Shown: positions 35,492 to 62,174 of the stretch, one piece after another
How the letters are laid out: each line of letters opens with the position of its first letter
Numbering within the stretch: the stretch's first letter is position 1
Made by a program: the position numbers and the translations under genes
Assembly (NCBI RefSeq): GCF_964020005.1
Contig: NZ_OZ026474.1
Coordinates: 186,001 to 250,000, forward strand
Origin: Spiroplasma endosymbiont of Atherix ibis
GTDB taxonomy: Bacteria > Bacillota_I > Bacilli_A > Mycoplasmatales > Mycoplasmataceae
DNA length: 64,000 nt
Direction: 5' to 3'
Notes under the pieces: generated by a model
The model's input: only the letters and a program-made list of their open reading frames with translations
Told to the model about the DNA's origin: nothing
Database searches by the model: none

Positions 35492-35662
35492 ATGAAATAT
35501 TTTTTATCGATATTAATATCAAGTTTCTTATCAAAAAAAATAAAATTTATAAAAGATTTAACAATTACAGAGAAATTACCTCAACCTACATTTCATTCAT
35601 TTTTAGTATGTAATAACATATTAGATTATAAATTAAAGGTTTTAGATTATGATAAAAAGTAA
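35492..35662 (+). CDS. Small hypothetical protein, 56 aa
   Basis: A short frame from ATG 35492, 27 bases after the DnaC-like gene and behind a weak AGGT. It begins MKYFLSILISSFLSKKIKF, a short hydrophobic stretch that could be a signal or membrane segment. It overlaps the dam-type gene start by 14 bases. Coding status uncertain. Confidence 0.4.
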   Translation: MKYFLSILISSFLSKKIKFIKDLTITEKLPQPTFHSFLVCNNILDYKLKVLDYDKK

Positions 35663-36497
35663 ATTTATATCACCATTAACATGACCTGGTGGAAAAGCTA
35701 AACAATGAAACTTAATTAAAAGTTATTTTCCTAAAAATACTGAAAAAATGGTCTATATAGAACCATTTTTTGGGGAAGGAAGTTGTGGACTAAATGCGTT
35801 AAGAGAAAATTTATTTAAAAATTATCATTTTAATGATATAGATGAGAATTTAATTAATTTTTGAAATTGATTTGTAGAACTAAAAAATGATAATAGTTTT
35901 AATGATATTATCAATCAAATACCATTTTTTCTATTTTATCCAATTTCTAATTTAGAAAAGTTGAAAAATAGTGAAATGATATCTACAAATAAAAATTTAT
36001 TATTTTTAGTTAATAATAATTTAACTTTTAATGGCCAAAGTTGAGGAACTTTAACTCAAAAAAGATTGGAACAAAATTGAAATTGTAATAAAAGAAATAG
36101 AATTGATTTATGTTTCGATTTATTAAAAGCAAATGAAAATAAAATAAAATTTTCTAATTTTAATTTTTTAAGTAATTGAAGCACTATTAAATTTAATGAA
36201 AGTTTATTTATGTATCTTGATCCACCATATTTTTCAAATAAAGGAAAACCATATAAATATAAATTTACAATTAAACAATTTAATGAATTTAAAAATAAAG
36301 TTGATGAGTATAGAAAATTAGGAATAAAAATTCTAATTAGTTTAGATGATTGTTTTGAAGTTAGAGAATTATTTAAAGATTACTACATTCATGAAGCTGA
36401 GTGAAAATATACTTCTTCGAATACTAAAGGTAATAAAAAATGTAAATTAGGAAAAGAACTGTTTATTACAAATTATGAGGTGAAAAATGAAAATTAA
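35649..36497 (+). CDS. D12-class DNA adenine N6-methyltransferase (Dam-like)
   Basis: A 282-residue DNA methylase of the D12/Dam class. The N-terminal SPLTWPGGKAKQW is the S-adenosylmethionine-binding region typical of the class. [14 protein letters not shown] is motif I and DPPY at 191-194 is the catalytic motif IV. GATC or a related site is a possible target, but this cannot be decided. It overlaps the cytosine methylase gene by 11 bases. On a mobile element, such enzymes usually protect incoming DNA from host restriction. Confidence 0.88.
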
Positions 36498-37704
36498 AAC
36501 ACTAGAGCTTTTTGGAGGAATAGGAAGTCCCAGAAAGGAATTAGAGAATTTAGGGTTAGATATAAAACATATTGATTATGTAGAATGATGAAAACATCCT
36601 GTAGAAGCATATAATCGAATTTTTGATAACAATTACAAAGCACAAGATATTAAAGAATGAAATTTAAATGTAGATATGCTTATACATGGTAGTCCATGTC
36701 AAGATTTTTCAGTAGCAGGAAAAAATGATTTATCTAGTGGAAGATCAATTTTATATAGACGAACATTAGAAATAATTAAAAAAGAATTAAATCCTAGGCC
36801 TAAGGTTGTAATTTGAGAAAACGTAAAAGGTTTAATTTCAAAAAAGAACTTTCCTCATTTTCAACATTATTTAGATACTATGAAAAGTTATGGATATAAA
36901 AATCATTATAAAATTCTAAACTCAAAAGATTTTGGGATTTCTCAAAGCAGAAACAGAGTTTTTGTAATTAGTATTTTAAAAGGACAAGATAAATTTAATA
37001 ATAATTTTAGTTTTGAAAATTTAGAAATAACTGAATATAAACCTTTAAAAGAATTTTTAGAACCGACTAAAGAAATTGGTAAAGAATATTATATAACTCA
37101 AAAATCAATGTCTAAAGCAATAGAAGAAGGTAAAGTTAAAATTATTGATAATGTTGTAGATACAATTCTTACTAAGCAAGTAAGATGAAATAATCAAGGA
37201 GTTCTTAAAATTCCATTAACTACATTTAATCAAGAAAATTATGTTCATAATTTAGATAAAGCTATAGCACCAACATTAACTGCAGGTAGAGCAAATAGCC
37301 GCATTAAAATTGCTATTCCATTATTAGAAATAGAAACTAAAGACTTTATAAATTTTAAAACTATTTCAAGAACGATTGATGGTGAATTAGTAAAAAGATC
37401 GCATAATAGAATTTGAAAAGAAGATAAATATGTCGGAACCATTGCTGCTTTATCTAATACAAAAATTAAGGTTGAAGCAATAGAACCAATTCCTAATGTA
37501 CCAATATTTATTATAGAAGGTAAACCATATCATTTAAGAATTTTAACTCAGCGTGAAGCGTGAAGACTTATGGGTTGAGATGATAAATCAATAGATAAAG
37601 TTATTGATATGCCAAAAACTCATATGTATCATATGGCGGGTAATGCAATTGTAATTCAAGTTTTGGAAGCAATTTTTAAAGAGTTAATAAATATTAAGAG
37701 GTAA
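36487..37704 (+). CDS. DNA (cytosine-5)-methyltransferase (Dcm-like)
   Basis: A 405-residue C5 methylase. Motif I is [15 protein letters not shown], catalytic Cys71 lies in motif [10 protein letters not shown], and Glu111 in motif [18 protein letters not shown] is motif VIII, and LTQREAWRLMG and [11 protein letters not shown] are motifs IX and X. The target-recognition region lies about residues 190-330. It is translationally coupled to the D12 methylase. No recognised restriction endonuclease is beside it. Several TGA codons encode Trp. Confidence 0.92.
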
Positions 37705-44171: not shown

Positions 44172-44367
44172 AATTTTACAATAGATTAGTGAGTTTTTTA
44201 AAAAAAGTATTTAGTTGATTAAAGCTAAAATTTTTTACTTTTCAAAATTTTTTTTCTAGTCTAAATTAAAAATTAATTCTTATTCAATTAAGTCAATTAA
44301 CTCTATTATGTCAATTATTTAAATTATTTGTTTTAGTTTATTTTTACTTTTAATAAAAATAAAAATG

Positions 44368-44442
44368 TATAATAAAAATAGTTCACAAGAGATATGTTAG
44401 AAATACTGACAAATCTCTTTTTATTTACTTTCTAACATATCT
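44368..44442 (+). promoter_or_regulatory. Leader element copy 1: promoter plus terminator/alternative hairpin
   Basis: TATAAT (44368-44373) is followed by AGTTCACAAG, then AGAGATATGTTAG, loop, CTGACAAATCTCT and a T tract (an intrinsic terminator), then TTTCTAACATATCT. That last segment is an 11-bp perfect complement of AGATATGTTAG in the terminator's 5' arm. The terminator arm here is CTGAC instead of CTAAC, still pairing through a G-U. It precedes the virB6-like gene by 32 bases. Three GTCAATTA-like repeats lie just upstream (44297-44333). Confidence 0.75.
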
Positions 44443-44473
44443 TAAATTGACAATTAGAAAGGAAAATAGAAAT

Positions 44474-46231
44474 ATGGGTATGTTTCAAGGATTAATTAAT
44501 TATATTTTATGATTACCATGTAAATGAATTTTACAACTTTTAAATGCTGTAAATGATGTTGTAAAATATTTAGCAACAGATTTATTTGAATCAATACTAT
44601 TTGGAAATAAAGTAAGTGATTGAAATCAAGTTTTAATACCTTCAACTTATTATCGAATATTGATAGTAGCTGCTGTGTGTTGATTAATATTTTTAGTATC
44701 AACATTTATATGCCATTTAAAAAAAGATATTATTGAACATGAAGAAACACCAATTACTAAAAAAATTATGGAGTCTTTAAAGTACTCTACATTTTCTGCA
44801 ATTTTGTTAATATTCATTCCTTTATTTGTTTGAATATTAGTAAAAATGACTTCAGTATTAACACAAGGCTTAATGCTTGCTTTTGGTTCAAAAAATACAA
44901 GTATTGCTGATTTACTTTACAATATGGGAAATCCAAATTGAGATGGAAAAATAGTAGAACAGAATGGAATTTATCCTGCTCCAAGTAATTTAACTGAATG
45001 AAATATGATAGTAGAATTAGTAGGATTATGTATAGTTTTTATTTGTCTTTTATTGGTTATGATAAATATTGTTACAAATACTTTTGCAACTTTCTTTTAT
45101 TTTATATTAACTGGTTTTTATGCTTTAACTGCAGTATTTGACCAGGGTGCAAGAATGAAAGATTATTCCAAAACTATTATTGCAAATAACTTTATAATTT
45201 GTTCAACTATGGTTATATTTAGTGTTTATTCAAGTTTAATTCAAATATCGTTTAATTCTATGAATAAACTAGGAATGAATGGTTTTACAAAAATGCTATT
45301 ACAACTTGCTTTAGCTTGTGGAGGAGGATTATTTGTAGTTAATGGAGATCAATACGTTTCAAGATTAGTAGGAGAAAATATAAGTGGTGTAAGTAGTGCA
45401 ATGCAAGGATTGGGTGCTATAAAAGCAGGAGCAATGTTAGCAGCTGGTTTAGGAGTTGCAGCTATGAAAATGAGTAAAAAAGGTTTAATGGGTAGAAAGA
45501 ATTTTAGTAATTCTTTAAAAAATGACTTAAGTGGTTCACAAGATTCTAATAACTTTGCAAATAATCAATCAAGTGAAGAAACTTCTAATGAAACCGTTCA
45601 AAATGGAACTCATCAAAATAAAATGCAACAAGCTAAGGAAAATTTTGTTAAAAATAGACAACAAGCAATGTCAAAATATCAAAAAGGTGGTATTTTAGCT
45701 TTAGCAGGTTTAGGAGTAGCAGCGGCATTTCATGGTACAAAAACTGCTAAAAATTTAGTAGGTTCATTTGTTGGTACAAAAGCAAGTAGAATGATGAGAC
45801 GTGAGCAATTAAAAGAACAAACTAGAACTTTAGGAAAAGGACTAGCAAAACTTGGAGCAAAAACTTTAGGAGTAGCAGGAACTACTTTTGGAGGTGTTGC
45901 AAAAATGACTGGATTAGATGTTACAAGAGGCAAAACTCTAAATGAACGTGGTAATGTTTATCATTCTGATAAACAAGGAACATATAAAGAAAACTTAAAA
46001 ACCGCATTTAATGAAAAAATTGATAAATTAAATGCTATGAGTTCTAATCAAATAATAAATAGCAATGGAATTAATAGAAAAAAAGAAATTCAAAAAGCTA
46101 AAGAAGCACTTATTATAAAAAAACAAAAAAGATTATCTTTAAAATTATTTGATGAGGACTTTACAAAAAAATCTAAAAAATGAGAAAAATATGCTGATGA
46201 AACTAATAAAAATAAAAAAAATAGTGAATAA
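44474..46231 (+). CDS. VirB6/TrbL-like conjugal transfer membrane protein (Mbov_0396-type)
   Basis: A 585-residue polytopic membrane protein with at least six hydrophobic segments in the first 340 residues. These include VAAVCWLIFLVSTFI, LVGLCIVFICLLLVMI and LLQLALACGGGLFVV, then Gly/Ala-rich GLGAIKAGAMLAAGLGVAAM. A long basic, Gln/Asn-rich cytoplasmic tail with more Gly/Ala segments follows. This layout is that of VirB6/TrbL channel proteins and of the ICE transmembrane protein known from Mycoplasma bovis ICE. It sits directly behind leader copy 1 and upstream of virB4, as in other type IV secretion loci. Confidence 0.78.
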
Positions 46232-46341
46232 TTTATTATATTTTATAATTTAAAAATATAATTCACATTAAAGTTTCACTATTTTTTTAAAACTATTAGA
46301 GTTATAATATAAATAATGATTAAAAGAAAGTGAGTTTATTT

Positions 46342-47133
46342 ATGGGACAGTCTTTATTAAGCAAAATTTTAATAGGAAATCAGGATCCAGAAAAAGTTGC
46401 AAAATATAATGCAAATCAAAAATGAATAAATTCTAAGGAATATCAATATTTAGAATGACAAAGAAGAGTAACCAATGAAGAAAAAAAGATAATTAAAACT
46501 ATGATTTTAATTAAGAAAATAGAAAAAACTAATCCAACTAAATCTAAAATATTGCTAGAAAAATTTTGCAATAAACAGCCAAAATATTTTATAAATACTA
46601 TACATGGTTTTAAAAGAACAGTTCCAGAAAGAGAAAGATGAGGATGCGATGAAAAAACTACCGAGGATTTTAAAAAAGGCCGTACATCTCTTAAAATATG
46701 ACACTTTAAATGATGACTTTCTTATGAAATTTTGAGAAAAGATAAAGTATATGAATGAATTATGTCTCCAAGAACAAAAAATGAATTTGAAAAAAATAAT
46801 CAAGAATGAATTGAAAATAAATATAGTCCATGGGGGTATAAATTAAGTGAGAAAGAAAAAAATAAGAGGGAACTTAATAGAGAAAAAGATTTTAACTATT
46901 TAAAATATTTAAAAGAACAATTTTATATTCCATTATTAATAAAAAAACAAATTCAGTTTGGAGTTTATAATTTAATTTCAAAAGAAATATGTCATCCAAA
47001 ATTAAAACAAGTTAATATTAATTCCAATGAAGAAATTGAAAAGCAATTAGAATTATTAAAACATCAACAAGAAATTTTAGATAAACAAATAGAGTTAGAA
47101 AAAATAAAGGAAAAAAATACTAATAGAGGATAA
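46342..47133 (+). CDS. ICE-associated hypothetical protein, 263 aa
   Basis: ATG follows GAAAGTGAG, about 110 bases after virB6, with a TATAAT at 46302 upstream. A soluble, basic protein rich in Trp (many TGA), Lys and Glu, with a C-terminal coiled coil (EIEKQLELLKHQQEILDKQI). No known domain. It is probably an element-specific transfer or relaxosome accessory by position only. Confidence 0.65.
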
Positions 47134-47137
47134 AAAA

Positions 47138-47257
47138 ATGTTTTTTTTAAATAAGTTTACAAATATTTATTTACTAGCAATAATAACAATTGTATCAAAT
47201 TTTATTATGTGATTTTTATATAATTATATAAATAATAAAATATTATTAAATTTTTAA
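47138..47257 (+). CDS. Tiny membrane protein, 39 aa
   Basis: ATG 4 bases after the previous stop. One membrane helix (IYLLAIITIVSNFIMWFLY) makes up most of the protein, ending NKILLNF. No strong ribosome binding site apart from TAGAGGAT in the upstream gene's end. Possibly a small component of the transfer apparatus; coding status moderately likely. Confidence 0.5.
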
Positions 47258-47333
47258 ATTTTAATAAAAGATTTAAATAGAAAATAGAAAATAGAAGATA
47301 AAAGAATAATCTTTTTATAATTAAGGAGGAAGT

Positions 47334-48398
47334 ATGTTAATAGTAGTAACTATTTTTCTAATAATTCTAATAAGTTTAATTATATTTTTTGGAATTTTTA
47401 TACTTAAAAAAATAAAACTACAAAAGATTGATAACAATGAAGTAGATTTAGCTACATATGAACCAGTTAGAGAATTATATAATAAAAAACTAGATGAAAT
47501 TAAAGAATTAGAAAAAGAACGTAATAAATTAAATGAAAAGTTACAATCTACTTTAGAGAAAAAAATAGAAGACCAGTTTATTAATAATATTGAAGAAAAT
47601 AAACAACAAATTAAGGATTTTCAAAAATTATTAGATGAAGTAAATAGATTATTTTTAGGAAATACAAAAAAAGTTGGAACATTAAGTGAAACAATTTTAG
47701 AGAGAATGCTTAATATAATTTGTAATACAGAAATAAAGGGAGCAATAATTAAAAGACAAGATAAAGATATTAATAACAAGATACCAGATTTAATTATAGA
47801 ATCGGATAATAATATTTATCCGCAAATAACAATTGATTCAAAATTTCCAGTTGATACATGAACAAATTATTTAAGTTCTACAAAAAGTGATAATGATAAA
47901 AATGTTTTAGTGAAAGCTATCAAAGTGCATATTAATGATATAAGTGATAAATATATTCATGATTCTGTTCCATTTGCAATTATGTTTACTCCGCTAGAAG
48001 ATATGATATTAAAATTATCTTCTGATGATAGTTTTAAATTTGGTAAGGATCAAAAATTAAAAGAAGTAGGAGAATTAAATTTTTCAGAATTTTGTTTTAA
48101 TAAAAAAATAGTCCCTGTCTCACCAACAACTATAATTGCTGTTTTAACTACATTAGAAAGATATTTTGATTTATTTCAAAAATTAAATGAGGTTGATGAG
48201 AAAACACAAAATATTTCTATCTGAATTAATAAGCACAGTACACTTACAAGTAATTTTAAAACTCTAGGAAGTGATATAACAAAAGTTATAGAAAACTATA
48301 ATAAAATTATTAATAATTTTAAGGATTTAAATAAATCTTCAGGTTTTATTAATTCAAAAGAAATAGAAGAAATAAAAAATAAAATTAAAAATAATTAA
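47334..48398 (+). CDS. rmuC: RmuC-family DNA recombination protein
   Basis: A 354-residue protein with an N-terminal membrane helix (LIVVTIFLIILISLIIFFGI), then a coiled coil (ELEKERNKLNEKLQSTL), then the RmuC nuclease-like domain. Family marks are GNTKKVGTLSETILERML, IDSKFPVDTW, AIKVHINDISDKYI, FAIMFTPLE and the VPVSPTTIIAVLTTLER motif. RmuC limits DNA inversions and rearrangements and is thought to be a membrane-tethered nuclease. ATG follows AAGGAGGAA. Its presence between virB6 and virB4 of a conjugative element is unusual. Confidence 0.85.
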
Positions 48399-48479
48399 AA
48401 TAAATAGGAAAATATACATTATTTGGTAATTAAAATAGTTTAAAAAATTGATAAAATATCAAAAAAATTGGAGAATAAA

Positions 48480-48536
48480 ATGAAAATATTAGAATTTGCT
48501 AGTATTCAATTAAAATCAAATTTAATTTTTAGATAA
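48480..48536 (+). CDS. Very short ORF, 18 codons
   Basis: ATG at 48480 is preceded by TTGGAGAATAAA, a good ribosome binding site, but the frame ends after 18 codons (MKILEFASIQLKSNLIFR). It may be a leader peptide or the stump of a lost gene, 22 bases before the promoter of leader copy 2. Confidence 0.3.
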   Translation: MKILEFASIQLKSNLIFR

Positions 48537-48557
48537 ACTAGTTAATATAATTTAATA

Positions 48558-48633
48558 TATAATATAAATAGTTCAAAAGAGATATGTCAGAAATGACAAA
48601 TCTCTTTTTATTTTTCTGACGTATTATGAACAA
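48558..48633 (+). promoter_or_regulatory. Leader element copy 2, with compensatory changes
   Basis: TATAAT (48558-48563), then AGTTCAAAAG, GAGATATGTCAGAAATGACAAATCTC and T5, then TTTCTGACGTAT. Relative to other copies, GTTAG became GTCAG, and both partners changed to match: TGAC in the terminator arm and CTGAC in the downstream arm. GTTC at the start can also pair with GAAC at the end (48628-48631). It precedes virB4. Confidence 0.8.
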
Positions 48634-48660
48634 ATAAAAATATGTTAGGAGAATAACAAA

Positions 48661-51600
48661 ATGACTAGAAATCCAATTATTCCAGAAAATACAAATAAAA
48701 GAAAATTTATAATATGACAACAATTAAATTTGACAATTATTGATCTTTCAGTATGAATAATTTTTATAGGTTTAGGAGCAATACTAGGTTTCTTTTTGTG
48801 AAAACTAGGGGGAGTTTGAAAACCTATTGCTATATTATCTGCTAGTTTATGTTTAATTGCAGGATTCTTATTAAATACTAAAAGTCAATTTCATAATAAA
48901 AAATTTTATGCTGTTATATTTGATTGATTTATATTCTTATTTGTAAATAAAAAATATAAATTAAAAATTAAAAATAGTACTTTAAATTTAATACCTTATA
49001 AATCTATTGAAGGAGAATACATTTTATTAAAAAACAAACTCTATATGAGTTTAATAAAAATTCAAGGAAATTCATTTTTTGACTATGAACAAATTAAGCA
49101 AAATAATATATTAGAAAAAATTTGAGAGATTTATAATAGTTTAAAAATGGGAGGAAGCATAATAAAACTTGATGAGTTAAAATCAAGAAATCAAAGCTTA
49201 TTCTTTTTAGAAGAAAAACGTCATGAATGAGAAGTAAAAAGAAAAAATGGAGAAATAAACGATAAACAATATTTTTCTAGAGTAAGACTAATTGAAAAAG
49301 ATATTGAAAAATATTCAAATCTTGAAGCTAATAGTGTATTAGAATGAATTGAAAAATCAATTTATATTGTTTTTTATGCAGAGTCAATTGATCAACTAAA
49401 ACAAATTGAAAACAAAATAATTAATGAATATAGAAGAGCAGATTTAAATGCCCACAAAATTGATATATCTAAAAAAGTTAATGTTTTAAATAAAATAGTT
49501 GATATTGATATACTTGATGATAATGAAAATAATATTTTTAAATATAAAGATACTTTAGATGAATACTTTGGATATGATACTTTAGAAAATAAAGCATCCT
49601 ATTTAAAAATTGATAATAATCTTAAAATTTCAATAGGTTCAGTTGATAATTATCCAGGAGAACCAGATTGTGGTTGACTTGGACAAATCTTTAATATTGA
49701 TAGTCCTGTTATAATTAATTTTAATAAAGTAAGTGATAAAGTTTTTCAAGAGACTTTAAGCAAAGCAAGAAGAACTGCAATAGCAACAGCTAATGCAACA
49801 AGTAAAAAAGAAATTTTAACACAAAGAAAACGTCAACAAGAAATTGAAAAATTAGAAGAATTTGCTGACACTATTGGTTATGGACATGATCAATTATATA
49901 AATTTAATATTTATATAATTAATAAAGGAATTAATAATAAAGAATTAAATAAATCTATAAAAGAAACAAAAAAAATACTAAAACAGCAGAAATTAACTTT
50001 ATTTGCAAATCCTTATAAGCAAATTGAAGCATTCAGTGGAATGTTACCAAAACCTCATGATCCTTTAATGGAAATAAATGGAAGAGAAGTTCCTCTATAT
50101 TCATTAGTATGAGGTATGCCTTATATTAATAATTCTTTAAATGATTTACAAGGTTGATTTATAGGAAATAGTATTGTAGGAGATGAATTATTTTTTAATC
50201 CACATATAAGAAATGAAGAAAGAAGAAATGCTAACATGTTCTTTGTTGCAACAACTGGAGCTGGAAAATCTACAACTATGCAAAGAATGTTAAAAAATGA
50301 AATTCTAAATGGAAATAGAGTTTATGTAATTGATCCTGAAAATGAGTATTCCCGATTTGCAGATTACTTTGGAGAAGATAAGATATTTCTAGGTGATGGA
50401 ATTTATAAAATTAATCCTTTACAAATTATGCCTACATTGTCTGATTTACAAAATGAAGAAGAAAAAGAAAAAATAGAATATAATAAAAAGTTTTGAAATA
50501 TCGATAAAGAGAAAACAATTAGCAAAGAGTTTAATTTAAATGAGGCTTTAATACTAAATCACCAAAGTATAGTAGAAATATTATTTAAAAATTTCTTTAA
50601 TGATATTAGTGAAGAAGATACACGTTATTTAAAGAATAAGTTTTGATTTTTTTATAATTATTGATTAAATAATGCTTCAAATAAAAATATATTAGAATGA
50701 AAAAATAATGAATTTCCTATTTTACAAGATTTTTATAATTGGCTGATTAAAAATAAAGAAAATAATAGTTTGTACAATAAACTAATAGAACTTTTAGAAG
50801 ATGGTTTTGTTATATCTCAAAATGGTCTTAAAAAAGGTAGTTATTCTATGTTTTATAATGGTTATACAAGTATTGATATTTCAAATAGATACTTAACTAT
50901 TTTTGATATGAGTAGTTTAAAAGATGGAAGTGACAAAAGATTACTTTCAATGCAAATGTTTCTAGTAATTAAATTATTGGAAAGACAAGTAAAAGTAAAT
51001 CATGGAAAACAACCAAATGTTGCACAAAGAATAATAGTTGATGAAGCTCATTTGTTAATGGACAAAGATTTTCCTATAGCTTTAGATTTTATATTTAGAA
51101 TGGTAAAAATGATAAGAAAAAGAAATGGGGGAATAACAATTATTACTCAAAATGCAGAAGATTTTCTTTCTAATGAAGAAATAGAAAAGAAAACTAAAGC
51201 TATTATTAATAATAGTCAATATGCTTTTATTATGAAATCAACTGCAAAAAATATTGATAAAATTGAAAGTTTATATTCAGACAGTGATGGATTTACATAT
51301 CAAGAAAAGAGTCACTTAATAGATGCTCCAAATGGAGAAGGTTTACTTATTACATCAAGAACAAAAAGATTTTTATTAAAAATTGATGTTCAGCCAGATG
51401 ATTTTAAAATTATTTCTGGAGATGAAACTGATTTAGTAAAATGAACTTTAAATTATTTAACTACCAGATTATTTAATATAATAAATGGTTTAAAATTTAT
51501 AAATATTGATCAAGAAAATTGTGTAGATATTAATAGAGAAAAAGAAGAAAAAACTTTAATTATTAAGTTAAAAGATAATCATAAAATTAATGAGAGTTTA

Positions 51601-51756
51601 TTAAAAAATAATATTGAAATTGATAATGTAAGAATTATTAATAATTCTTTAGAAATTAATTTTAAGGAATTGCATAAAGAAATAGCTATTAAATTTTATG
51701 ACAAAGTAAGAAAGAAAATCGATTTAATAAGAGGAGGAAAAGAAAGTGATATCTAA
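48661..51756 (+). CDS. VirB4/TraE-type conjugal transfer ATPase (Mbov_0397-type)
   Basis: A 1031-residue protein. Residues 30-85 form two or three membrane segments (VWIIFIGLGAILGFFLW; IAILSASLCLIAGFLL), a PrgI/VirB3-like module fused to the ATPase. The AAA+ motor has Walker A ATTGAGKST with Lys536, Walker B RIIVDEAHLL with Asp794 and Glu795, and TIITQNAEDFL downstream. VirB4 ATPases energise assembly of the type IV secretion channel. ATG follows TTAGGAGAA, behind leader copy 2. Its end overlaps an HU-like gene. Confidence 0.92.
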
Positions 51757-52006
51757 TAATAAAAAAATTTATAAGAGTGAAATTTGCAATACTATTTTTC
51801 AAAGAACTAAAATAAAGAAAAAATATATAAATGTTATTTATGATGAGATTTTTAAAGAAATTAAAAATCAACTTTTAAAAGAAAAAAAACTTACAATTAA
51901 AAATTTCGCTTCTTTAAAAATAAAAAGATATAATAATTCATTTTTTAAAAATTGTTTATCTTTAAGAATTAAAAAATCTTGTAATGGGTGAAAAAATGAA
52001 AAATAA
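51746..52006 (+). CDS. HU/IHF-like DNA-binding protein, 86 aa
   Basis: GTG start at 51746 inside the virB4 end, with AGAGGAGGAAAAG upstream. Under code 4 the frame ends at TAA 52004. The pattern YKSEICNTIFQRTKI at the N-terminus and VIYDEIFKEIKNQLLKEKKL followed by LTIKNFASLKIKRY fits HU (helices, then the 'GFGSF' strand). The long beta arm appears shortened or missing. HU/IHF proteins bend DNA and often form part of relaxosomes. Confidence 0.65.
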
Positions 52007-52445
52007 ATATACTCAAATTTTAATAAGATTTAGAACAGATGAAGAAGTGGAACTATTAAATAAGTTTAAAGCTATTTTTAAGAGTAAAAGTGAAAGTTTT
52101 AACAAATATATTAAGGACATTATAATAGATATTATTGAAAATAATTTAGAAAATAAAGAAATAAATAAAACTAAAAATAAATTGAAGGATAATTTTAGTG
52201 AAATTTTAGAAGAAAATATTATTCCAAGATTTTATGGAATGGTAAAAACCATAAATGAAAAAAATTTAATAAAAATTGAATTATTAAATAGAAAAGTAAA
52301 CTTTTTAATTTATGAATTAGGATTTAATAGAATGATTGATGGTAGACCAATAATTAATGATATTACTGAAAAAATAAAAGAGAAAAATTGAATGCTTGAA
52401 GAGGAATTAAAAATAAATGATGAAATTCAAATTAAAAAGAGTTAG
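51996..52445 (+). CDS. Possible ribbon-helix-helix relaxosome protein, 149 aa
   Basis: Starts at ATG 51996 (an in-frame ATG also lies at 51984) with GGGTGA just upstream, overlapping the HU-like gene by 11 bases. The N-terminus TQILIRFRTDEEVELLNKFK has the strand-then-helix look of ribbon-helix-helix proteins such as MobC-like nicking accessories. The central part is helical and charged. This assignment is tentative. It ends the virB4 operon, just before leader copy 3. Confidence 0.55.
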
Positions 52446-52511
52446 TAATATATAAGTTTTTTCTACTCAAAATAAGTTTTTGGAATTAAAAATAAATTAA
52501 TTAGAAAATAG

Positions 52512-52592
52512 TATAAAATATAAATAGTTCACAAGAGATATGTTAGGAAACTAACAAATCTCTTTTTTTATTTTCTAACGTATTTTGAGAAC
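52512..52592 (+). promoter_or_regulatory. Leader element copy 3
   Basis: A TATAAAAT-type -10 region, AGTTCACAAG, GAGATATGTTAGGAAACTAA leading into CAAATCTC and T7, then TTTTCTAACGTAT and GAGAAC. The 5' GTTC can pair with the final GAAC (52589-52592). It precedes the gene at 52616 by 24 bases. Confidence 0.75.
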
Positions 52593-52615
52593 AAAAAATA
52601 TAAAGGAGAAATAAA

Positions 52616-53005
52616 ATGTCAGTATATACAAGAAGTAACTTAACCGATAATTTATGAATAGTTGGAGAAATTTGAATACCAAATGAAAAGAAAGAACAAA
52701 AAAATAATTTTATAGCAGTTAGTGGTTTTGGATTATCAGTTTTTAATGTAAAAGTTATAGAGAATAAAGAAAAGAATAAATATCAAGTAGTTTTTTATAC
52801 TTTAGGAAAATATAAAGCTTTAATTGGAGAATGTACTTATCAAGATGCATATAATGAAAAATTAAAATCTAATGAAGTACCTTTTATATTTGGAATTTAT
52901 GATTCAGAGTATAAAGAGGATGATAAAAAAACTCAAGAATTCTTTAAAAAATTACCAGAAGAATTAAAAAAATTAACTAATAAATACAATGAAAAATGTC
53001 GATAA
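52616..53005 (+). CDS. Hypothetical protein, 129 aa
   Basis: ATG follows AAAGGAGAAAT, directly behind leader copy 3. A compact soluble protein with beta-rich pattern (FIAVSGFGLSVFNVKVIEN; YQVVFYTLGKYKALIGECTY) and a charged helical end. Possibly a small OB-like or single-strand-binding accessory, but no diagnostic residues are seen. Unrecognised. Confidence 0.6.
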
Positions 53006-53045
53006 AAATATAAAGAAAGAATATTCAAGATAGAGGTGTTATAAT

Positions 53046-53552
53046 ATGGATAGTAAAAACATTATATTGTGTTTTTCGAAAGAAAACTATGAAATAAAGG
53101 GTTCAATGACACTTGATGAATTTAAAAGTTATATGAATTCGCTTCCAAAAGAAGAAGCAATTAGAATAGGAAAAGCAATGAGAAAAGATGTTAATGAATA
53201 TTTAAATTTAGTTCCTAAAAGAGAAAGAAAAATTACTGAAAAACCTGTTGGACCACTTGGCCCAATAATTGATATTGATCAAACTGATTGAAAAGAAAAA
53301 TATTTAGAAGAAAAAAATAAAAGAGAAAAATTAGAAAAGGAATTTAATGAATTTAAAATTGAAGTAAAGCAATTGATAACTGAATTAACACAAGAAATTA
53401 AAGTTTTAAAAGAAGAAAATCAACAGTTAAGACTTGAAAATCAACAGTTAAAACTGGAAGTCCAACAATTAAGAAAAAAAGTAGATTATTACGATAAAAA
53501 ATATAAAAATGAATATGATAAGAAACATGATTTTTCTAGAGGGAGTAGATAA
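53046..53552 (+). CDS. Coiled-coil protein, 168 aa
   Basis: ATG follows AGAGGTGTT. The N-terminal half is globular with a Pro/Gly-rich joint (KPVGPLGPIIDID). The second half is a long coiled coil with regular heptads (LKEENQQLRLENQQLKLEVQ), likely mediating dimerisation. It lies between an unknown gene and a lipoprotein gene in one operon. Function unknown; a structural partner in the transfer complex is possible. Confidence 0.65.
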
Positions 53553-53554
53553 AT

Positions 53555-54301
53555 ATGAAAAAACTTTTAGCTTTAACTTCTTCTATTACTTTAATAACAA
53601 GTTCAATTATTTATGTTACTAGTTGTAAAACATTTGATAATAATGGAACTGTTGATAAAGAAAATGGAGATAAAAAAGAACAAGAAGCTATTAAAGAATT
53701 AAAACAAACTGCTGCAAATTGAGATTATAAATATAAAAATAAACTGTCATATCAAAAAGCAAGAGATTATTATTTAAAAACAGCAAATGATTTTTATGGT
53801 AATTTTATTAAGAATTGAGTAGATGAAGGTAAATCAGAAAATGAAATATGATATTTAAATGGAGATATTTATTTTCAATCAATAATATGATATGCAAATG
53901 AAGCACAATGAGATTTAGTTAGAATTGATGAGTTTGATGGTAATTATAAATATGAAGAAATTGATATTAATGAATTAAATCAAAAAAGTTATTCTAAAAA
54001 ATGATTTCAATTTAGACTAAAAGTTTTAAATTTATATATTTCTTATTACTCTGGATTACATGAAGAAATTAAATCTCAAGGTAAATGAGGTATATATGCT
54101 ATGGGCATGAATTCAGCTTTAGCTAGATATAAAACTGCTAAACAAGCTCAAATTGACAATCCAGGTGAAGGAGTTAATGTAATAGATTTACAAAAAGATA
54201 TAAAATTTATAGATGATTTAACTGCATTTTGAAAATTAAGATTTGATAAAATTCAAAAATTACATAATAAGATTAGTGATATTTTAGTAAACTGAGAATA
54301 A
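53555..54301 (+). CDS. Element-borne lipoprotein, 248 aa
   Basis: The signal peptide MKKLLALTSSITLITSSIIY ends with lipobox VTSC, lipidated Cys24. The mature part is helical, very rich in Trp, Tyr and Lys (QSIIWYANEAQWDLVR, WFQFRLKVLNLYISYYSG). No domain recognised. In conjugative elements, lipoproteins in this position often serve entry exclusion or channel assembly (VirB7-like), so one of these roles is plausible. It starts 2 bases after the coiled-coil gene and is followed by leader copy 4. Confidence 0.72.
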
Positions 54302-54309
54302 AAATAATA

Positions 54310-54383
54310 TATAATATAAATAGTTCACAAGAGATATGTTAGGAAACTAACTTAGCTCTTGTTTTTTTATTTTCTAACATATC
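54310..54383 (+). promoter_or_regulatory. Leader element copy 4
   Basis: TATAAT (54310-54315), AGTTCACAAG, GAGATATGTTAGGAAACTAA, then CTTAGCTCTTG and T7, then TTTCTAACATATCC. The outer terminator stem is AAGAG/CTCTT here. The downstream arm pairs perfectly with GATATGTTAG. It precedes the relaxase-virD4 operon. Confidence 0.75.
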
Positions 54384-54408
54384 CTTTTAAAATAGAAAAG
54401 GTGAGTTT

Positions 54409-54654
54409 TTGAAAGAAAAAATTTTGAAATATTTTGAACAAATAAAAAGTTTATGAAATCAGTTTTTAGAAAAGTACAGTTTTATTAATGAAATAGATAA
54501 AAAGTTTTTATCTGATTATCAAAAAACATTAAATAAAATTGAAATTATCATGAAAAAAATTCAAGTTATAGTTTTTCAAAAAGAAGATGAAAAAATTAAT
54601 CAAATAGATAAAGCAAAAGTTAATAATTTTTATTATGAAAAGGAGAAAGAATAA
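54409..54654 (+). CDS. Hypothetical helical protein, 81 aa (TTG start)
   Basis: The best start is TTG at 54409, with AAAAGGTGAG upstream; no ATG is available near it. The product is a charged helical protein (KEKILKYFEQIKSLWNQFLE; QKTLNKIEIIMKKIQVIV). It is immediately before the relaxase gene, the usual place for a small relaxosome accessory protein. No family recognised. Confidence 0.55.
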
Positions 54655-54655
54655 T

Positions 54656-56020
54656 ATGAATACACCCTTTAATGAATATAAAAATTTTAAATCTCCTGTA
54701 GTTTTTAAAATAAAACCTAAGGATAAGTTGGGAAAAACTAGAAATGATATTTCTAAAAGAATAGAATATTATTATTCTGGAAAAGCTCAAAAAAATAATA
54801 AAACTAAAAATAGAACTTATTTAGATTATATTACACGAGGGGATGCTATTTATAAATTAAATCTAACTAAAAATGAGTTAATTGAATTAAATAAATTAAG
54901 AGAAACTAACTCAAAGGAATATTATAAAAAAATAGAGTATTTAAAAACTGTAAAAGAGGAAGTTACCGGAGTTTGAAGTAAAGAAGGATTAGTAAATGAA
55001 GAAAGATTAGGAGAAATTAAATCTAATTTATTAAAAATAAATCAAGAAAAGCAATTTGTTTGAGATACAGTTATTTCATTTGAATCTGCTTTTGTTGAAA
55101 AGTATAAAATATATTCTCCTGAAATTGTTCATGATGTTTTAAAAGATAGAATAAATATGCTTTTTAAATCTAAAGGCATTAACTCTGATAAAATGGAATG
55201 ATTTTTTACTTTTCATAAAAATACTGACAATCCTCATGTGCATTTATTATTCTTTGAAAAAGAACCAACAAGATGCTTAAAAGGATATGAACCAAAATAT
55301 CATTTTGATAAACATCTTTTAGAGGATTTTCGCTTTAGATTTGCAACTGACTTAATATTAAAAGAACAAAACATAGAGTATAAAGATTTTATGAAAAAGA
55401 GAGAAAATCTTGTAAATCATTTTAAACAAAGTTTAAAAGAACCAATAATTTGACAAACTTCTTCTTGAATGGATGTAAAAGAGATCTATAATGATTTAAC
55501 ATCTGATTATGAAAAAATAGTATATGAAATTAATAAATATAATTATGAAAATAATAGAGCGAAATTTAAAAAAGTAAATTCCTTAAAATATAATCTTTTA
55601 AATAAAACAGAAAAACAAAGAATTAATAAAATTATTAATCATATTTTAAAAAACGATAAAAATATTAGTCAAGAGTTTAAAGTTTATGTAAAAAATTTAC
55701 AAGGTTATCAAAATGCAGTCAATGAAATAAATAATAATAAAGATAGTAAATTTATCTATGAGTCTCTTTATGGCAGAGATGGACTATATTCAAGAATTGG
55801 CAATAGAATTTTGTATGCAATAAAAAGAAATATTGATATATCAAGAAAAGGTATTATTTCAGCAAAATATTATCCAAAAATAAGAAAAATAAGAATCTCT
55901 ATTATAAGTGATTTATTGATTAAAATTTCTAAGTTAATAAAAATTATGAATAGTTATGTTTCATTTGAAACAAATAAAACAGAGGAAATATTTAAAGAAA
56001 GAGAAAGAACTAAAAAATAG
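54656..56020 (+). CDS. HUH relaxase (MobL/MOBP-like)
   Basis: A 454-residue protein bearing the three-His metal motif of HUH relaxases, HKNTDNPHVHLLF, with His187, His194 and His196. Candidate catalytic tyrosines are Tyr55 and Tyr58 in RTYLDYITRGD. VWDTVISFESAFVEKYK between them matches the strand before the motif in MobL-type relaxases. Such an enzyme nicks oriT, stays covalently bound to the 5' end and is carried into the recipient. The C-terminal 200 residues are helical and basic. ATG at 54656 follows AAGGAGAAAG. The nic-like sequence at 59224 fits a MOBP enzyme. Confidence 0.82.
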
Positions 56021-56022
56021 TT

Positions 56023-56298
56023 ATGCAAACTTTAGAACAAATTACTTCTATAATTGGAGCTATAGTTATTCTTTTATTAATAATTTTTATTTGAAAATAT
56101 TTAAAATGTCAAAAAATACTTAGAAAAATGAATAAAAAAGAAATTGATGAAATTACTATTAATGTATTTTTTAGAAAAAAAACTTATTATCGTTTTATTT
56201 TAAAAAATAAAATTAAATTATATAAATTATTTTTGTTAATTTTGTTAATTATTTTTGTATTACTTTTAGCTATTAGTGGAGGAGTTAAATATGCATAA
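56023..56298 (+). CDS. Small two-pass membrane protein, 91 aa
   Basis: ATG at 56023 is 2 bases after the relaxase stop. Residues 7-25 (ITSIIGAIVILLLIIFIW) and the C-terminal LFLLILLIIFVLLLAISGG are membrane helices, with a basic loop between. The stop overlaps the virD4 start by 8 bases, so the two are coupled. Probably a partner of the coupling protein. Confidence 0.62.
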
Positions 56299-59095
56299 GA
56301 TTTCAAAAAAGAAAAGATGATTAGTTACAACTATTTTTTTTCTTATTGGTTTAATTATATTGATTAGTCTTTTTTTATTAATTAAATATGAAATAGTAAA
56401 AGTTAAACTTTTAATAAAGTATAAAAATTTTCTATTTATTCCTTTTATTGGATTGGTAGGATGATATTTTTATATAACTTGAAAAATAATATTTAATAAT
56501 AAATCAAAAAAAGCTGTAAAGAATGTTGATACAAATAAAATAAAAGATTTTGGAATTGCAAGATGAATGCACAATGAAACAGAAATAAGTAATTTAAGTA
56601 AACAAGAAAAAACCTTAAAAGAGTTTCATCATTACTTTGGTTGTGATATTAAAAAATGTTGTAAACCTAAAAAAGAAATAATAAAAAAAGCTGCATGAGT
56701 TATAAATTGTCAATATAGAACAAAAGATAAAAATACTCTTGTTGTTCCTCCATTAGCTAAAAACTTTGAATATTATGATGGAGAAAACAATATTTTAGAT
56801 ACTGAGAAGTATTCAAATAGTTTAGAAAAATGAGAATTAGAAATAGATAAATATCATTTTAAATATAATATTGTATATCATACTTTAGAAAAACTTCATT
56901 TATTAGTAATGGGTTCAACAGGTAGTGGTAAAACTCAAAAACTTATTTTTCCTGGTATTATTAGAAATGCCTTTTTAGATAATAAAGAACAACCAACAAT
57001 GGTAATTACTGATCCTAAAGGAGAAATTTATGAACAAACTAGTGGAATACTTGAATTACAAGGCTATGATGTAAAAGTATTAAATTTTAGAGATACTACA
57101 ACAAGTTATTCATGAAATCCTTTATATATTAGCTGAAAGTATAGAAAAGAAGCTATTAATTATAGAAACGAATATACTTTTGTTAAAACATTTACAAATT
57201 TAGTTACTGTAAAAGAATACATAAATAAAGAAGTTATTGAACTACATAATTCACAAACTCAATTATTATGTTCAATTCATGATACTAAAAATTGTATAGA
57301 TTGTGTTGAAAACTTTCAAAAAGAAATATTAAATAACGGTTGAGAAAAAGGAGAAGAAATAAAATTATATGTTTCAAATGGTAGATTTCATATAAATGAA
57401 TATGACTTTGAAATAAAAGTAGAGAATCATATTAAAAATTTAAAGTCCTTATCTGAAAAAGAGATAATGAATCTAGCAAGTATTATTATTCAAACTTCTG
57501 ATAATGGAGATCCTTTTTGAGTTAATGCATCAAGAACCTTTTTTATAGGAATAGCAGTTATTATGTTAGAAATTATGGATAAAAATCAAGATGCTTTACC
57601 TTTAGAAAAATTTAATATTGTAAATATAATTAAAATGATGGATGAAACAAATTTTGAAGAATGAATAGAGAAATTTAGAGATGTTAAAAATAAAGATGGC
57701 GAGGATTCTTTTGGATTAAATCAAATTCTTACAGTAGTGAATTCAAGTGAACAGACTCAAAAATCCATTATAACAACAGCTAAAGCAGAAACAACTCTTT
57801 ATACTTTTACAAGTGTTCAAGGAATGTTATGCAGTACACAAAATTTAATAAATATGGAAGAAATAGCTTATGGAGAAAAACCCACAATTTTATATTTAAT
57901 TGTTCCAGATGATGATAAAACATTTCATCCTTTAGTAGCTTGTTTTGTAGATCAATTGTATAAAACTTCAGTTAAAGTAGCTACAAATAATAAAGTTAGT
58001 GGTAGATTAAAAGAAGCTACATTATCTAGACAAATTCAGTTTTATTTAGATGAATTTGGTAACTTTCCTAAAATACCAACATTTGCACAAATGATTACTG
58101 TAGCTAGAAGTAGAAATATTTTCTTTATGTTAATTTTGCAAGACTATGGTCAATTAAAAACTGCTTATGGAGAAACTGAATCACAAACTATTAAATATAA
58201 CTGTAATGCAAGTATTTATATTAGAACTAATGATTCATCAACTGCAGATGAGTTATCAAAAGAATATGGAGAAAAGCCAATAGTAGCTTTTAATATTAAT
58301 GATAAGTTTAATAGAGTAGAGAAAAAAGATTATAAAAATAAAAAAGAAGAGGAAACTACTAATGTTACAACTGTTCCTTTAATTAGGGGAAATGAAATAT
58401 TAAATTTAGATGATAATTTTATGATAGTTAAAAAAAGTGGTAAAAACCCTGCTTTGCTTCATTCAATATATTCTTATAAAGTTAAAAAATTTAAAGAATA
58501 TATGAGTTATAAACGTAGTTTTGTTCCTTCTAATTCAATTAATTATAAGAAAAATCACTATTTTAATTTTATAGATAATGATTATCAAGAGTGAATTAAT
58601 TATATTGGAGCAGATAAAGAATTAGCAGAATGAGAGTCTTTAAATAATTTAGATAATTTAGAAATAGAAAATAATTTGGATTTTAATAATAGTTCGATTG
58701 AAGATTATCACAATTATAATTACAAGTCTTTATTAGAAGAACAAAATAAGAATATAGTTTTGCAAAAGCAAAATATTAAATCAAAACACTTAAAAGAAAT
58801 AGTTCAACAAGTAGAAGAAAATGAGGAACTAGATGATGAAAATGAAGAGTTAACTTCAATGTTTTATGACATTGAAGAAAAGTTTAGAAATAAAAAAAGT
58901 ATGAAAGATCAAATAGAAAAAAATTATTTTAAATTAGAAAAAATTAAAGAAAGTTATTATAAATATTCTAATCTGTTACCAAATGAAATGACTACAAAAC
59001 AAAAGCAAGAATATAATAGTTTATATGAACAACAGCTTAAAATAGCTGAAGAAAATAAAAAAATACTTGAGAGATGTAAAAACTCAAAATATTAG
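56291..59095 (+). CDS. VirD4/TraG-type conjugal coupling protein
   Basis: A 934-residue inner-membrane DNA pump linking the relaxosome to the channel. Two N-terminal membrane helices (WLVTTIFFLIGLIILISLFL; FLFIPFIGLVGWYFYI) precede the motor domain. Walker A is MGSTGSGKT with Lys214, Walker B is FYLDEFGNFP with Asp587 and Glu588, and TDPKGEIYEQ is a VirD4 hallmark. A variable insertion of about 130 residues follows the TTSYSWNPLY segment. The last 170 residues are acidic, then helical coiled (EENEELDDENEEL), longer than usual, and may contact relaxase. The oriT candidate follows it. Confidence 0.93.
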
Positions 59096-59119
59096 TTTAT
59101 ATGCATTTATTTTCTTAGT

Positions 59120-59231
59120 TTCGGTTTCACCGAAAAAAATGATATCACTTAACATAGTTTGTGAGAAAATACTCCTTTAAAAAAGGAGTATTTTTTATAT
59201 AAATATGAAGTGATATCACTCTCTATCCTGC
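59120..59231 (+). other. Candidate origin of transfer (oriT) with MOBP-type nic core
   Basis: TATCCTGC at 59224-59231 matches the RP4/MOBP nic consensus (YATCCTG with the nick before the next pyrimidine, here after G59230). Four bases before it lies the perfect 12-bp palindrome AGTGATATCACT (59209-59220). An inverted copy of the flank (TGATATCACTTAACATA at 59140-59156 against TATGAAGTGATATCA at 59204-59218) and a hairpin TTCGGT/ACCGAA (59120-59134) complete the region. It is next to the coupling-protein gene of a locus encoding an HUH relaxase. Confidence 0.6.
59167..59197 (+). terminator. Intrinsic terminator of the relaxase-virD4 operon
   Basis: AAATACTCCTTT and AAAGGAGTATTT pair around an AAA loop, followed by Ts. 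It lies inside the oriT candidate. Confidence 0.88.
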
Positions 59232-59369
59232 TACACTTCGTGAATTAGATATTTATAAATATTGAGTTAAAATTATTAGTTTTAACAGAGAAAATGGTTT
59301 ATACTTTTAATGTATAAAAAATAATAATTATAATAGTTAAAAGAAGAACTAAAGGATAAATTTAATATT

Positions 59370-61049
59370 ATGAAAAATAAGAAATATTATGCTGTTAAAA
59401 AAGGAAAAACACCAGGTATTTATTCTTCATGAAAAGAATGTGAAGAACAAATTAAAGGTTTTTCAGGTCAAGAATATAAATCTTTTTTAACTGAAGAAGA
59501 AGCACAAAAATATTTAGATTTTAATAAAGAAGTTACAGAAATAGATGAATCAAATTTTGTTTTAGTAGCTTATACAGATGGAAGTTTTGATCCTCAAACT
59601 GAAGATATTTTTAAAGCTGGAGGAGTAATTATAAAAGAAAATAAAATAATTAAGAAAATTTCTTATAAATATAAAGAAAAAAGATGAATGTCATCAAACA
59701 ATATAGCTGGTGAAATTGCTGCTGTTATGGAAGTTATTTTATGAGCTATTAAAAATAATTATAAAAATATTCTAATTTATGTAGACTATGAAGGAATAAT
59801 TAAATGATCAAATAATGAATGATTAGCAAAAGAAAATATTTCAAAAGATTTTAAGTATTTTCTAAATGAGTATAAAAAAGATATAATTATAAAATTTAAA
59901 AAAGTTAAATCCCATTCCAATAATTTATTTAATGATTTAGCAGATAGTTTAGCTAAACAAGGAAAGGATTTTAAAAGTGCATCAGATTTAATAAATCGAA
60001 TGTATAATTATGTAAATCCATTTGAAATAGATAAATATATTGAAACTGCAATAACAAAAAAATTTAAAACATTAGAATTAGTTAATAGAAATAATAATAA
60101 AATAAAAGAAGAATTTATTTTAAAAGATACAGTTTCAAACGACGAATTTACTTTTTCTATTAGTAAAAATGGTTTATTTACTATGTATCAAGAAAAAGAA
60201 GAAAATATAAAAAAACAAGGATTTAAGTTTAAAGAATATATCGATAAAAATTTTAGTCAAGAAATTAAACGTAAAAATAAAATAATATCTATTAAAACTA
60301 ATATAATTTCATTTGAAGAAATTTTGAAAATACTTGAAAATTATAATTTTAATAAAATTGATAATAAGCAAATTAATGTAAAGGATGCTAGTGACAATAA
60401 ATTAACTATTAATTTTTATAAGAATTCTTTAGTAATTCAAGGAGGTTTAACTTCACTTTTTATAGAAGTAGTTTTTTTATTAATAAATTATTTTAAAAAT
60501 ATTTTATTGGATCAAGAAATTATCAATATTATTGAAAATATTATAGATGAATTTGATTATGAACAAAAAGAAAATACAGATTTTGATTCAGATATTGAAT
60601 TATTAGAAAATATACCTGATAGTTTAAAAGAATTAATTAGACAGACTCCAAAGTTAATAGTAATTATAAGAAATTATGATGATAATTTTAAAGATTATTG
60701 TTTTATTCTTACATCTACTTTTAGAGTTTTAGAAACTCTAATAGCAGATTTTATAATGAAGAAAAGTTCAAAAAAACCCCCTTTATTAATAAAAAAAGAT
60801 GGTTGAATTAAATTTAATATTTTTAATAAAAATAAAGAGGGTGAAAGAATAATTACAGATAAAACTATTTCAGAGGATAACTCGTTATTGATTATTGAAG
60901 GATATAACCTATATAAAGAATATAGAAATTCATACTTGCATGGAAATTTATTACCTGATAATTTAAAAAAAATAAACTCATTAGAAGAAGTAGAAAATAT
61001 TTTTAATAAAATTTTAGAGTGAATTAAAAAAATTAATGATAAGATATAA
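59370..61049 (+). CDS. RNase H1 fused to a HEPN-type RnlA-like toxin region
   Basis: A 559-residue fusion. Residues 1-45 are an RNase H1 hybrid-binding domain (YYAVKKGKTPGIYSSWKECE). Residues about 64-200 are a full RNase H domain: Asp in AYTDGSF, Glu in NIAGEIAAV, Asp in IYVDYEGI, then VKSHSNN and NDLADSLAKQ. The C-terminal 350 residues end with EYRNSYLHGN, an Rx4H motif (Arg519, His524) as in HEPN RNases, the same spacing as catalytic Arg318/His323 of E. coli RnlA. RnlA is known to need RNase HI for activity. Here both would be one protein. A small gene follows in antitoxin position. RNase H is certain; RnlA identity is inferred. Confidence 0.7.
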
Positions 61050-61073
61050 TACAAAAGAATTTAGGTGATTATT

Positions 61074-61352
61074 ATGAAAAAAATTAAATATTATAAAAAT
61101 ATTGAAAATGATAAATTTGATTTTTTAATATCATTTGAAACTGAAGAATTATTTAATAATTTTATTACTAAAAATAATCATACTAATAGTATAAAGAAAA
61201 ATAATATAGATAATATAGTTTGTAAGGTTAATAAAGATTATTTTTATTTACCTATTAAAGATAATAAAATTGATCTATTAAAGTCAAGAAAAGTTTCAAA
61301 AACATTTATAAATTTTGAAAAATTAATTGTATTAAAAAATTTTTCTATTTAA
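61074..61352 (+). CDS. Small protein in antitoxin position (RnlB-like candidate), 92 aa
   Basis: ATG at 61074 follows TTAGGTGATT, 24 bases after the RNase H fusion gene. The protein starts MKKIKYYKN, then a compact acidic-basic domain (KFDFLISFETEELFNNFI) and FLPIKDNKIDLL. E. coli RnlB, antitoxin of RnlA, is a small protein of about 120 residues, so size and position fit, but I see no diagnostic motif. No upstream promoter is visible, so it shares the transcript. Confidence 0.45.
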   Translation: MKKIKYYKNIENDKFDFLISFETEELFNNFITKNNHTNSIKKNNIDNIVCKVNKDYFYLPIKDNKIDLLKSRKVSKTFINFEKLIVLKNFSI

Positions 61353-61504
61353 TAAGTTAGAATTTAATTATCAAGAAATATAATTAGAGAAAAGCTATTA
61401 TATTTTAATAGTTAATTTTGTATAACTATTTATTTACAAAAATAGCATAAAATAAATAAATTAGATAAATAAAAATGTATATTACTTTAAATAATTTTTT
61501 AATA

Positions 61505-61586
61505 TATAATATAAATAGTTCACAAGAGATATGTTAGGAAACTAACTTATCTCTTTTTTTATTTTCTAGCATATTTTTTAGGAACC
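61505..61586 (+). promoter_or_regulatory. Leader element copy 5
   Basis: TATAAT (61505-61510), AGTTCACAAG, GAGATATGTTAGGAAACTAA, CTTATCTC and T8, then TTTTCTAGCATAT and GGAACC. The downstream arm CTAGCATAT pairs with ATATGTTAG through one G-U. GTTC can pair with the late GAAC. It precedes the pilin-like operon. Confidence 0.75.
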
Positions 61587-61607
61587 AATGAATAAGGAGA
61601 AAATAAT

Positions 61608-61862
61608 ATGAAGAAATTAATTAATTTAATATTAAATAGCCTAAATAATCCAGATGTTATTAAAAAAATATCAGAATCTATAGTAGAAAATTCAATATTA
61701 AATGAAAAAATTGACAATATTGAAGTTATGAATTTAGGGAGAAATTCTAAAACTTTACTAAGAGATTATGATAATGTTGAATCTGCGGTTCAAGAAGTTA
61801 TTGAGAAAGAAATAATTCCATCTATAAAACAAAAAAATAAGAAAAATGAATATATAAGATAA
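61608..61862 (+). CDS. Hypothetical protein, 84 aa
   Basis: ATG follows ATAAGGAGAAA behind leader copy 5. A helical charged protein (VIKKISESIVENSILNEKID; NVESAVQEVIEKEIIPSIKQ) without a membrane segment. Its stop overlaps the next ATG (TAATG), so it is coupled to the pilin-like gene. Unrecognised. Confidence 0.6.
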   Translation: MKKLINLILNSLNNPDVIKKISESIVENSILNEKIDNIEVMNLGRNSKTLLRDYDNVESAVQEVIEKEIIPSIKQKNKKNEYIR

Positions 61863-62128: not shown

Positions 62129-62135
62129 AATATCC

Positions 62136-62166
62136 TAAAATAGCAAAATTCATATTTTGCTATTTT
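62136..62166 (+). terminator. Intrinsic terminator, or attenuator before the surface-protein gene
   Basis: TAAAATAGCAAAAT pairs with ATTTTGCTATTTTA with a 3-base loop. It ends 9 bases before the next ATG, so it may limit rather than block transcription of that gene. Confidence 0.75.
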
Positions 62167-62174
62167 ATTTATAT

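Follow-up and report, generated by a model that had tools for sequence, protein, structure and literature searches.

A predicted promoter-proximal terminator leader on five operons of a Spiroplasma ICE and the possible reuse of its 5′ strand in the read-through message

Leaders that join a transcription terminator to the hiding of a ribosome-binding site are known from Bacillus subtilis. In that of vmlR, the hairpin after the terminator masks the ribosome-binding site and would be disrupted by a pairing in the read-through RNA; antiterminators lie 5′ of the terminator that they oppose and hence form first (PMC9226507). The trpEDCFBA/TRAP leader likewise combines a terminator with a sequestering structure over the ribosome-binding site and a 5′ stem-loop (PMC3913778). 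Here, we examined a much-repeated short leader whose nearest relative in logic is vmlR, with which it would share a terminator and, in some copies, a Shine-Dalgarno-hiding hairpin opened in the read-through RNA. The vmlR leader, however, has 219 nt, a short reading frame and an upstream anti-antiterminator and antiterminator (PMC9226507), whereas only about 5 nt precede the terminator here. Furthermore, in the present leader it is the terminator's own 5′ arm that would do the freeing, and the whole arrangement is repeated over five mobile-element operons. Reading the leaders by eye for a translated upstream frame as in vmlR, we found neither a conserved frame nor a usable ribosome-binding site. 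The trpEDCFBA/TRAP leader differs in its length of 203 nt, its (G/U)AG repeats and its upstream antiterminator, all of which are absent here (PMC3913778). A RAT antiterminator of the BglG/LicT type, a hairpin of about 30 nt upstream of and overlapping the terminator, is not present either, only about 5 nt being available. Toxin mRNAs of the aapA1 type reportedly resemble the leader in having an early, local and metastable hairpin that arises during transcription, a later competing pairing of longer range and a hidden ribosome-binding site; they are not known to involve a terminator decision or a promoter-proximal U-tract, and their sequence is unrelated. Rfam covariance models, among them those of riboswitches, the T-box and protein-binding leaders, matched nothing in the window at gathering score and nothing within 44300-62200 at E ≤ 1, and a short leader that Rfam does not list, standing on five ICE operons, offers a concrete and testable control point. 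The silencing of transfer genes in mollicute conjugative elements is not treated in a review of the field (PMC7466169), and a second helix placed after a terminator would be an economical means to silence leaky transcripts.

The window, by which we mean the whole stretch of 64,000 nt that was analysed, lies in a mollicute chromosome of 1.07 Mb with genetic code 4. Profile matches place an ICE at about 44.3-61.9 kb of it, with genes for a Mbov_0396-like membrane protein, a VirB4 ATPase of the Mbov_0397 family, a weak Mbov_0398 match, a MobL relaxase (76 bits) and a coupling protein (T4SS-DNA_transf, 144 bits). By its Mbov_0397-family ATPase, relaxase and coupling protein, the element is identified as a mollicute ICE (MICE), and the order Mbov_0396, Mbov_0397 (VirB4), weak Mbov_0398 match is that of the MICE ICEA (Mbov_0396-0398). 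By contrast, 24 VirB4 relatives in other mollicutes, 26-30% identical over most of their length, showed no convincing upstream copy of the leader architecture; the one weak, A+T-rich match among them is probably due to chance. Within the window, the leader of about 60 nt occurs in five copies, all on the plus strand, each preceded by a −10 box and followed by a gene start. Copy 1 (W1, 44381..44440) precedes the gene for the Mbov_0396-like membrane protein (ATG at 44474), copy 2 (W2, 48558-48633) that for the VirB4-type ATPase, W3 (52527..52592) an ORF at 52616-53005, W4 (54323..54382) an ORF at 54409-54654 together with the MobL relaxase gene at 54635-56020, and W5 (61518..61584) an ORF at 61608-61862; GTTC, with which the transcribed part would begin, starts at 44381, 52527, 54323 and 61518 in the four copies other than W2. 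The gene that W2 would control (48661..51756, plus strand, read in code 4) scores 783 bits against NCBIfam NF045975 (cut-off 590), the Mbov_0397-family ICE conjugal transfer ATPase. Flanks 5′ of the −10 box and 3′ of the downstream pairing arm (segment 3) are unlike between copies, and a reading as a mobile, MITE-like palindrome was dropped because all copies share one orientation, follow directly on a −10 box and stand before a gene.

Several neighbours of the leaders deserve mention. An RmuC-family gene (47334-48398) lies directly upstream of W2, and an 18-codon ORF (48480-48536) with a good ribosome-binding site (GGAG) sits between it and the W2 promoter. The ICE also carries a gene for an HU/IHF-like DNA-binding protein (51746-52006; PF00216, 37 bits) and, at 59370-61352, one whose product combines an RNase H1 N-terminal domain and an RNase H domain with a borderline match to the RnlA-toxin DNA-binding domain; a 95-aa ORF that weakly matches RnlA follows, and the two are possibly an RnlA-type toxin module. 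Elsewhere in the window, genes for a D12-class adenine and a C5 cytosine DNA methyltransferase lie side by side (35649-37704).

W2, all of whose features lie on the plus strand, opens with a predicted −10 box TATAAT (48558..48563), which is kept, together with its 7-nt spacing to GTTC, in nearly all aligned leaders and would set transcription off at A48570/G48571. The stretch after it, GTTCAAAAGAGATATGTCAG (48571-48590), begins with GUUC at the RNA 5′ end (48571..48574) and finishes with segment 1, AUAUGUCAG (48582..48590), the 5′ arm common to both helices and among the most conserved stretches of the leader. A GAAA loop (48590-48593) leads into the terminator partner TGAC (48594-48597), followed by ATCTCTTT and then the U-tract, whose region UUUUUAUUUUUC spans 48604..48615. 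Segment 2, UGACAAAUCUCUUU (48594-48607), makes up the 3′ side of helix 1:2, the predicted intrinsic terminator hairpin (48575..48608; −14.9 kcal/mol), which beats shuffled sequences (z = −6.2, 0/200); its stem in W2 is GTCA:TGAC, the final G of GTCAG going into the GAAA loop. Past the U-tract lies segment 3, CUGACGUAU (48616..48624), the downstream partner of segment 1; all 9 nt enter the second helix, ATATGTCAG:CTGACGTAT, with eight Watson-Crick pairs and one G.U. The GAAC at 48628..48631 would be the partner of the 5′ GUUC in the read-through fold, a pairing suggested by GAAC conservation. Segment 4, AUAUGUUAGGAG (48640..48651), which overlaps the ribosome-binding site, is a complement of segment 3 and the only exact match in the window.

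The original prediction held that W2 carries matched substitutions in three pairing segments, preserving two alternative helices. Direct reading bears out the 5′ arm, which is GTCAG in W2 and GTTAG in the other four window copies, and the downstream partner, which is CTGAC in W2 and CTAAC, CTAAC, CTAAC and CTAGC in W1, W3, W4 and W5. The terminator partner of W2 does read TGAC, but this change is not peculiar to it, as W1 already has CTGAC, making a U.G pair (W3, W4 and W5 have CTAAC); just two of the three changes are therefore special to W2. Both helices are nonetheless still paired in W2, as had been claimed, and also in the other 10 leaders from the two ICEs whose VirB4 is intact. A 9-nt complement of the 5′ arm just past the U-tract was found at 6 of 28 terminator-like plus-strand sites, namely the five leaders and one site within a gene, and in 2-4% of cases when the downstream sequence was shuffled; with the z of the terminator, this enrichment argues against chance as the source of the W2 pairings. 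In the whole genome there is no further site complementary to segment 1 within 3 mismatches, and an antisense partner was dropped as a candidate since the reverse complement of segment 1 is found at leaders only.

Elsewhere, leader copies were found in G109 (seven), in G091 (four clear and three more diverged) and in G192 and G079 (one each), the last being a remnant carried by plasmid NC_021832.1 of Spiroplasma taiwanense CT-1, the only match in the plasmid search. Relatives in G109 and G091 sit upstream of the same genes as in the window. The leaders of the window are named W1-W5, of G109 A1ps and A2-A7, of G091 B0-B4, of G079 C1 and of G192 D1; from these three related ICEs and remnants we aligned 16 leaders. 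Both-sided changes are confined to one column pair per helix with the same 5′ base (column 39), amounting to three cells in helix 1 and two in helix 2: the combination C-G is present in W2, A1ps and B1 for the terminator, and only in W2 and A1ps for the second helix. Since W2 and A1ps are near-identical paralogues, with surroundings about 90% identical in DNA, the column-39 change is probably one event, and as the terminator can pass from U.G to C-G without a compensating change, the information lies in the downstream A-to-G alone. Shuffles attain the covariation score of the 16 aligned leaders in 25/500 and 17/500 cases, so that covariation falls short of strong evidence. A1ps itself is the leader of a second, broken VirB4 start copy in G109 (L037:1838-2263) and is closer to W2 than is the leader of the intact G109 VirB4 gene.

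The second helix is conserved in the ICEs with intact VirB4, that is, in the window and in G109 without A7 (where segment 3 has been lost and no gene is evident). In all 11 of these leaders segment 3 pairs with segment 1 at 9/9 positions (99/99 cells), and wherever the arm departs from a perfect complement, A has become G opposite U, which is G.U-compatible. A3, before the intact G109 VirB4, has U with G and A, so that both helices are paired in another way. Segment 3 is mismatched in a decayed ICE and a remnant (B1, B2, B4, D1), where the terminator hairpin is still present in B1, B4 and D1 (−14 to −17) and weak in B2. In B1, C stands with G and A, leaving an uncompensated C.A mismatch in helix 2. 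A homologue with one helix broken while its operon stays functional had been named as what would speak against selection on both structures, but B1 is not such a case, as the G091 VirB4 gene is dead, broken by several in-frame TAA/TAG. According to the substitution spectrum between the two ICEs, about half of random segment 3 changes would keep pairing, and four pairing-preserving changes have a probability of about 0.06. Selection on the second helix is thus suggested, not strongly, by the preserved changes: the claim of strong evidence for both structures is partly supported, by the pairings kept in the ICEs with intact VirB4, while the covariation comes down to one column and probably one event.

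The original prediction did not include segment 4, ATATGTTAGGAG, whose pairing with segment 3 in W2 gives a hairpin of 18 bp (−15.5 kcal/mol, z −5.6, 0/200 shuffles). The same 3:4 hairpin reaches z −5.8 in B1 and −3.1 in A1ps, and W1 has an independent hairpin over its own ribosome-binding site (z −3.4); those of W3, W4 and W5 are no better than shuffles, and A3, the leader of the intact G109 VirB4 gene, is without segment 4. When ribosome-binding sites of other genes were placed behind the leaders, the U-tracts paired somewhat with any of them, and only W2, A1ps and B1 exceeded this background. This control removed a family-wide hiding of the ribosome-binding site, which had at first looked strong in all leaders. 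We therefore propose such hiding for the VirB4 leader, and by shuffles possibly for W1, and not for the leader family.

Folding of the nascent chain, computed with 12 nt hidden in the polymerase, makes helix 1:2 the lowest-energy fold from +39-42, and release of the polymerase is expected at about +44-47. Segment 3 exits later, at about +66-73 (some 20-27 nt past the point of release); helix 1:3 is the best fold only from +67-80, with a computed barrier of 13-17 kcal/mol for refolding from 1:2. Since segment 3 is encoded 3′ of the U-tract and emerges after the release point, the second helix would shape only the read-through RNA, and the leader probably controls the finished message and not termination.

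From the segments, their complementarity, order and conservation as read in the sequence, and from computed energies and folding order, we infer promoter activity, termination, a factor and an effect on translation or stability. We see an even chance that the leader is a conditional terminator close to the promoter and that its 5′ strand serves again in the read-through mRNA, where it clamps the 5′ end and keeps the ribosome-binding site free. An intrinsic terminator (1:2) arising after only about 5 nt would leave the operons off by default; with so little sequence before it, there is no upstream room for a riboswitch, T-box or antiterminator. A putative trans-acting factor would let the polymerase pass, whether it keeps segment 1 or segment 2 open or modifies the polymerase while this is still at the promoter; among the ICE proteins scanned with Pfam, NCBIfam and PHROGs we recognised no antitermination-like candidate of the Q, N or LoaP kind. 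Once the terminator is passed, segment 3 would emerge and the open segment 1 pair with it (9-13 bp, usually with GUUC:GAAC), clamping the 5′ end and occupying the U-rich tract and segment 3, so that the ribosome-binding site is left free. In transcripts that leak through with 1:2 already formed, refolding would be slow and segment 3 would remain free; in the VirB4 leader it could then pair with segment 4 and hide the ribosome-binding site, keeping leaky messages silent. It is possible, but in our view doubtful, that this extends to a double lock across the ICE, in which a strand used in the terminator, if the factor has kept it open, seals the 5′ end and frees the ribosome-binding site. The message would then record how it was made, and leaky transcripts would go untranslated.

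The order of folding weighs most against a classical attenuator, in which helix 1:3 would be an antiterminator competing with the terminator during transcription. The two helices are mutually exclusive through segment 1, and 1:3 is usually the stabler in the finished leader. A terminator is indeed predicted, but no competing helix precedes it; the second forms after the polymerase has left the terminator, which is the main amendment to the two alternative helices originally described, and this reading, which would need a far-upstream start or segment 3 supplied in trans from another transcript, is very improbable. We give as little credence to attenuation by a leader peptide, with ribosomes on AUG-UUA-GGA-AAC-UAA within segment 1, loop and segment 2 deciding termination: nearly every copy has the AUG in AUAUGUUAG, but no ribosome-binding site lies at a workable distance, and the frame has 4, 13 or 17 codons, differing among copies. 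Alternatively, GTTC/ATATGTTAG and its inverted copy could be half-sites of a DNA operator, recognised by an ICE repressor or by a polymerase modifier that sits on the promoter. The region from −10 to +20 is nearly invariant, beyond what pairing needs in the GTTC of W1 and W4, and a further factor that binds DNA or RNA there is conceivable. The loop between segments 1 and 3, however, measures 25-31 nt in the ICEs with intact VirB4 and up to 32 in G091. The inter-arm distance thus varies by 7 bp, and that of the outer motifs by 6, which an RNA helix can accommodate but a rigid protein-DNA site could not; G.U-compatible deviations are not favoured by DNA recognition, and the terminator partner changes too. 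Varying spacing and G.U compatibility favour RNA pairing and support the second helix acting as RNA, which makes the operator improbable; a Q-like factor on the −10 to +20 DNA alone would be compatible with the reused 5′ strand.

Two further alternatives, each rather unlikely in our estimation, leave the terminator in place and differ over segment 3. Helix 1:3 with GUUC:GAAC might chiefly protect the read-through mRNA from 5′-end-dependent decay, with any effect on the ribosome-binding site incidental. GUUC does stand at the inferred 5′ end, and GAAC follows segment 3 by 3-9 nt in 10 of 16 leaders, where its frequency across the window is about 0.26% per position, but GAAC is absent in W1, W4 and their G109 counterparts, and segment 4 of the VirB4 leaders would go unexplained. 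The leader might equally be no more than a terminator at the junction of two operons that also contains the next promoter, segment 3 being a roleless remnant of an inverted duplication. All copies could stem from one by duplication, and hairpins persist in remnants and decayed copies; against this, each of the 11 leaders from ICEs with intact VirB4 has a segment 3 that can still pair, and decay of the segment is seen where the ICE is dead, an argument of modest weight given the probability of about 0.06 noted above.

Pattern scans for the leader in genome contigs and viral contigs and a phage search gave no match, and a VirB4-seeded search for related loci confirmed no relative. Weak model matches in G037, G186, G204, G020 and G103 were dropped, as they look like ordinary terminators. 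Among the more diverged copies, two of G091 (L084:1501-1587 and L086:1501-1587) keep the promoter and a weak terminator and have lost segment 3, and A7 of G109 (L038:12933) keeps a terminator with a GAGA loop, its downstream partner being gone or displaced by about 75 nt. Three other mollicute ICEs (L087, L088, L091) carry a plain terminator-like hairpin at most 60 nt upstream of the VirB4 match.
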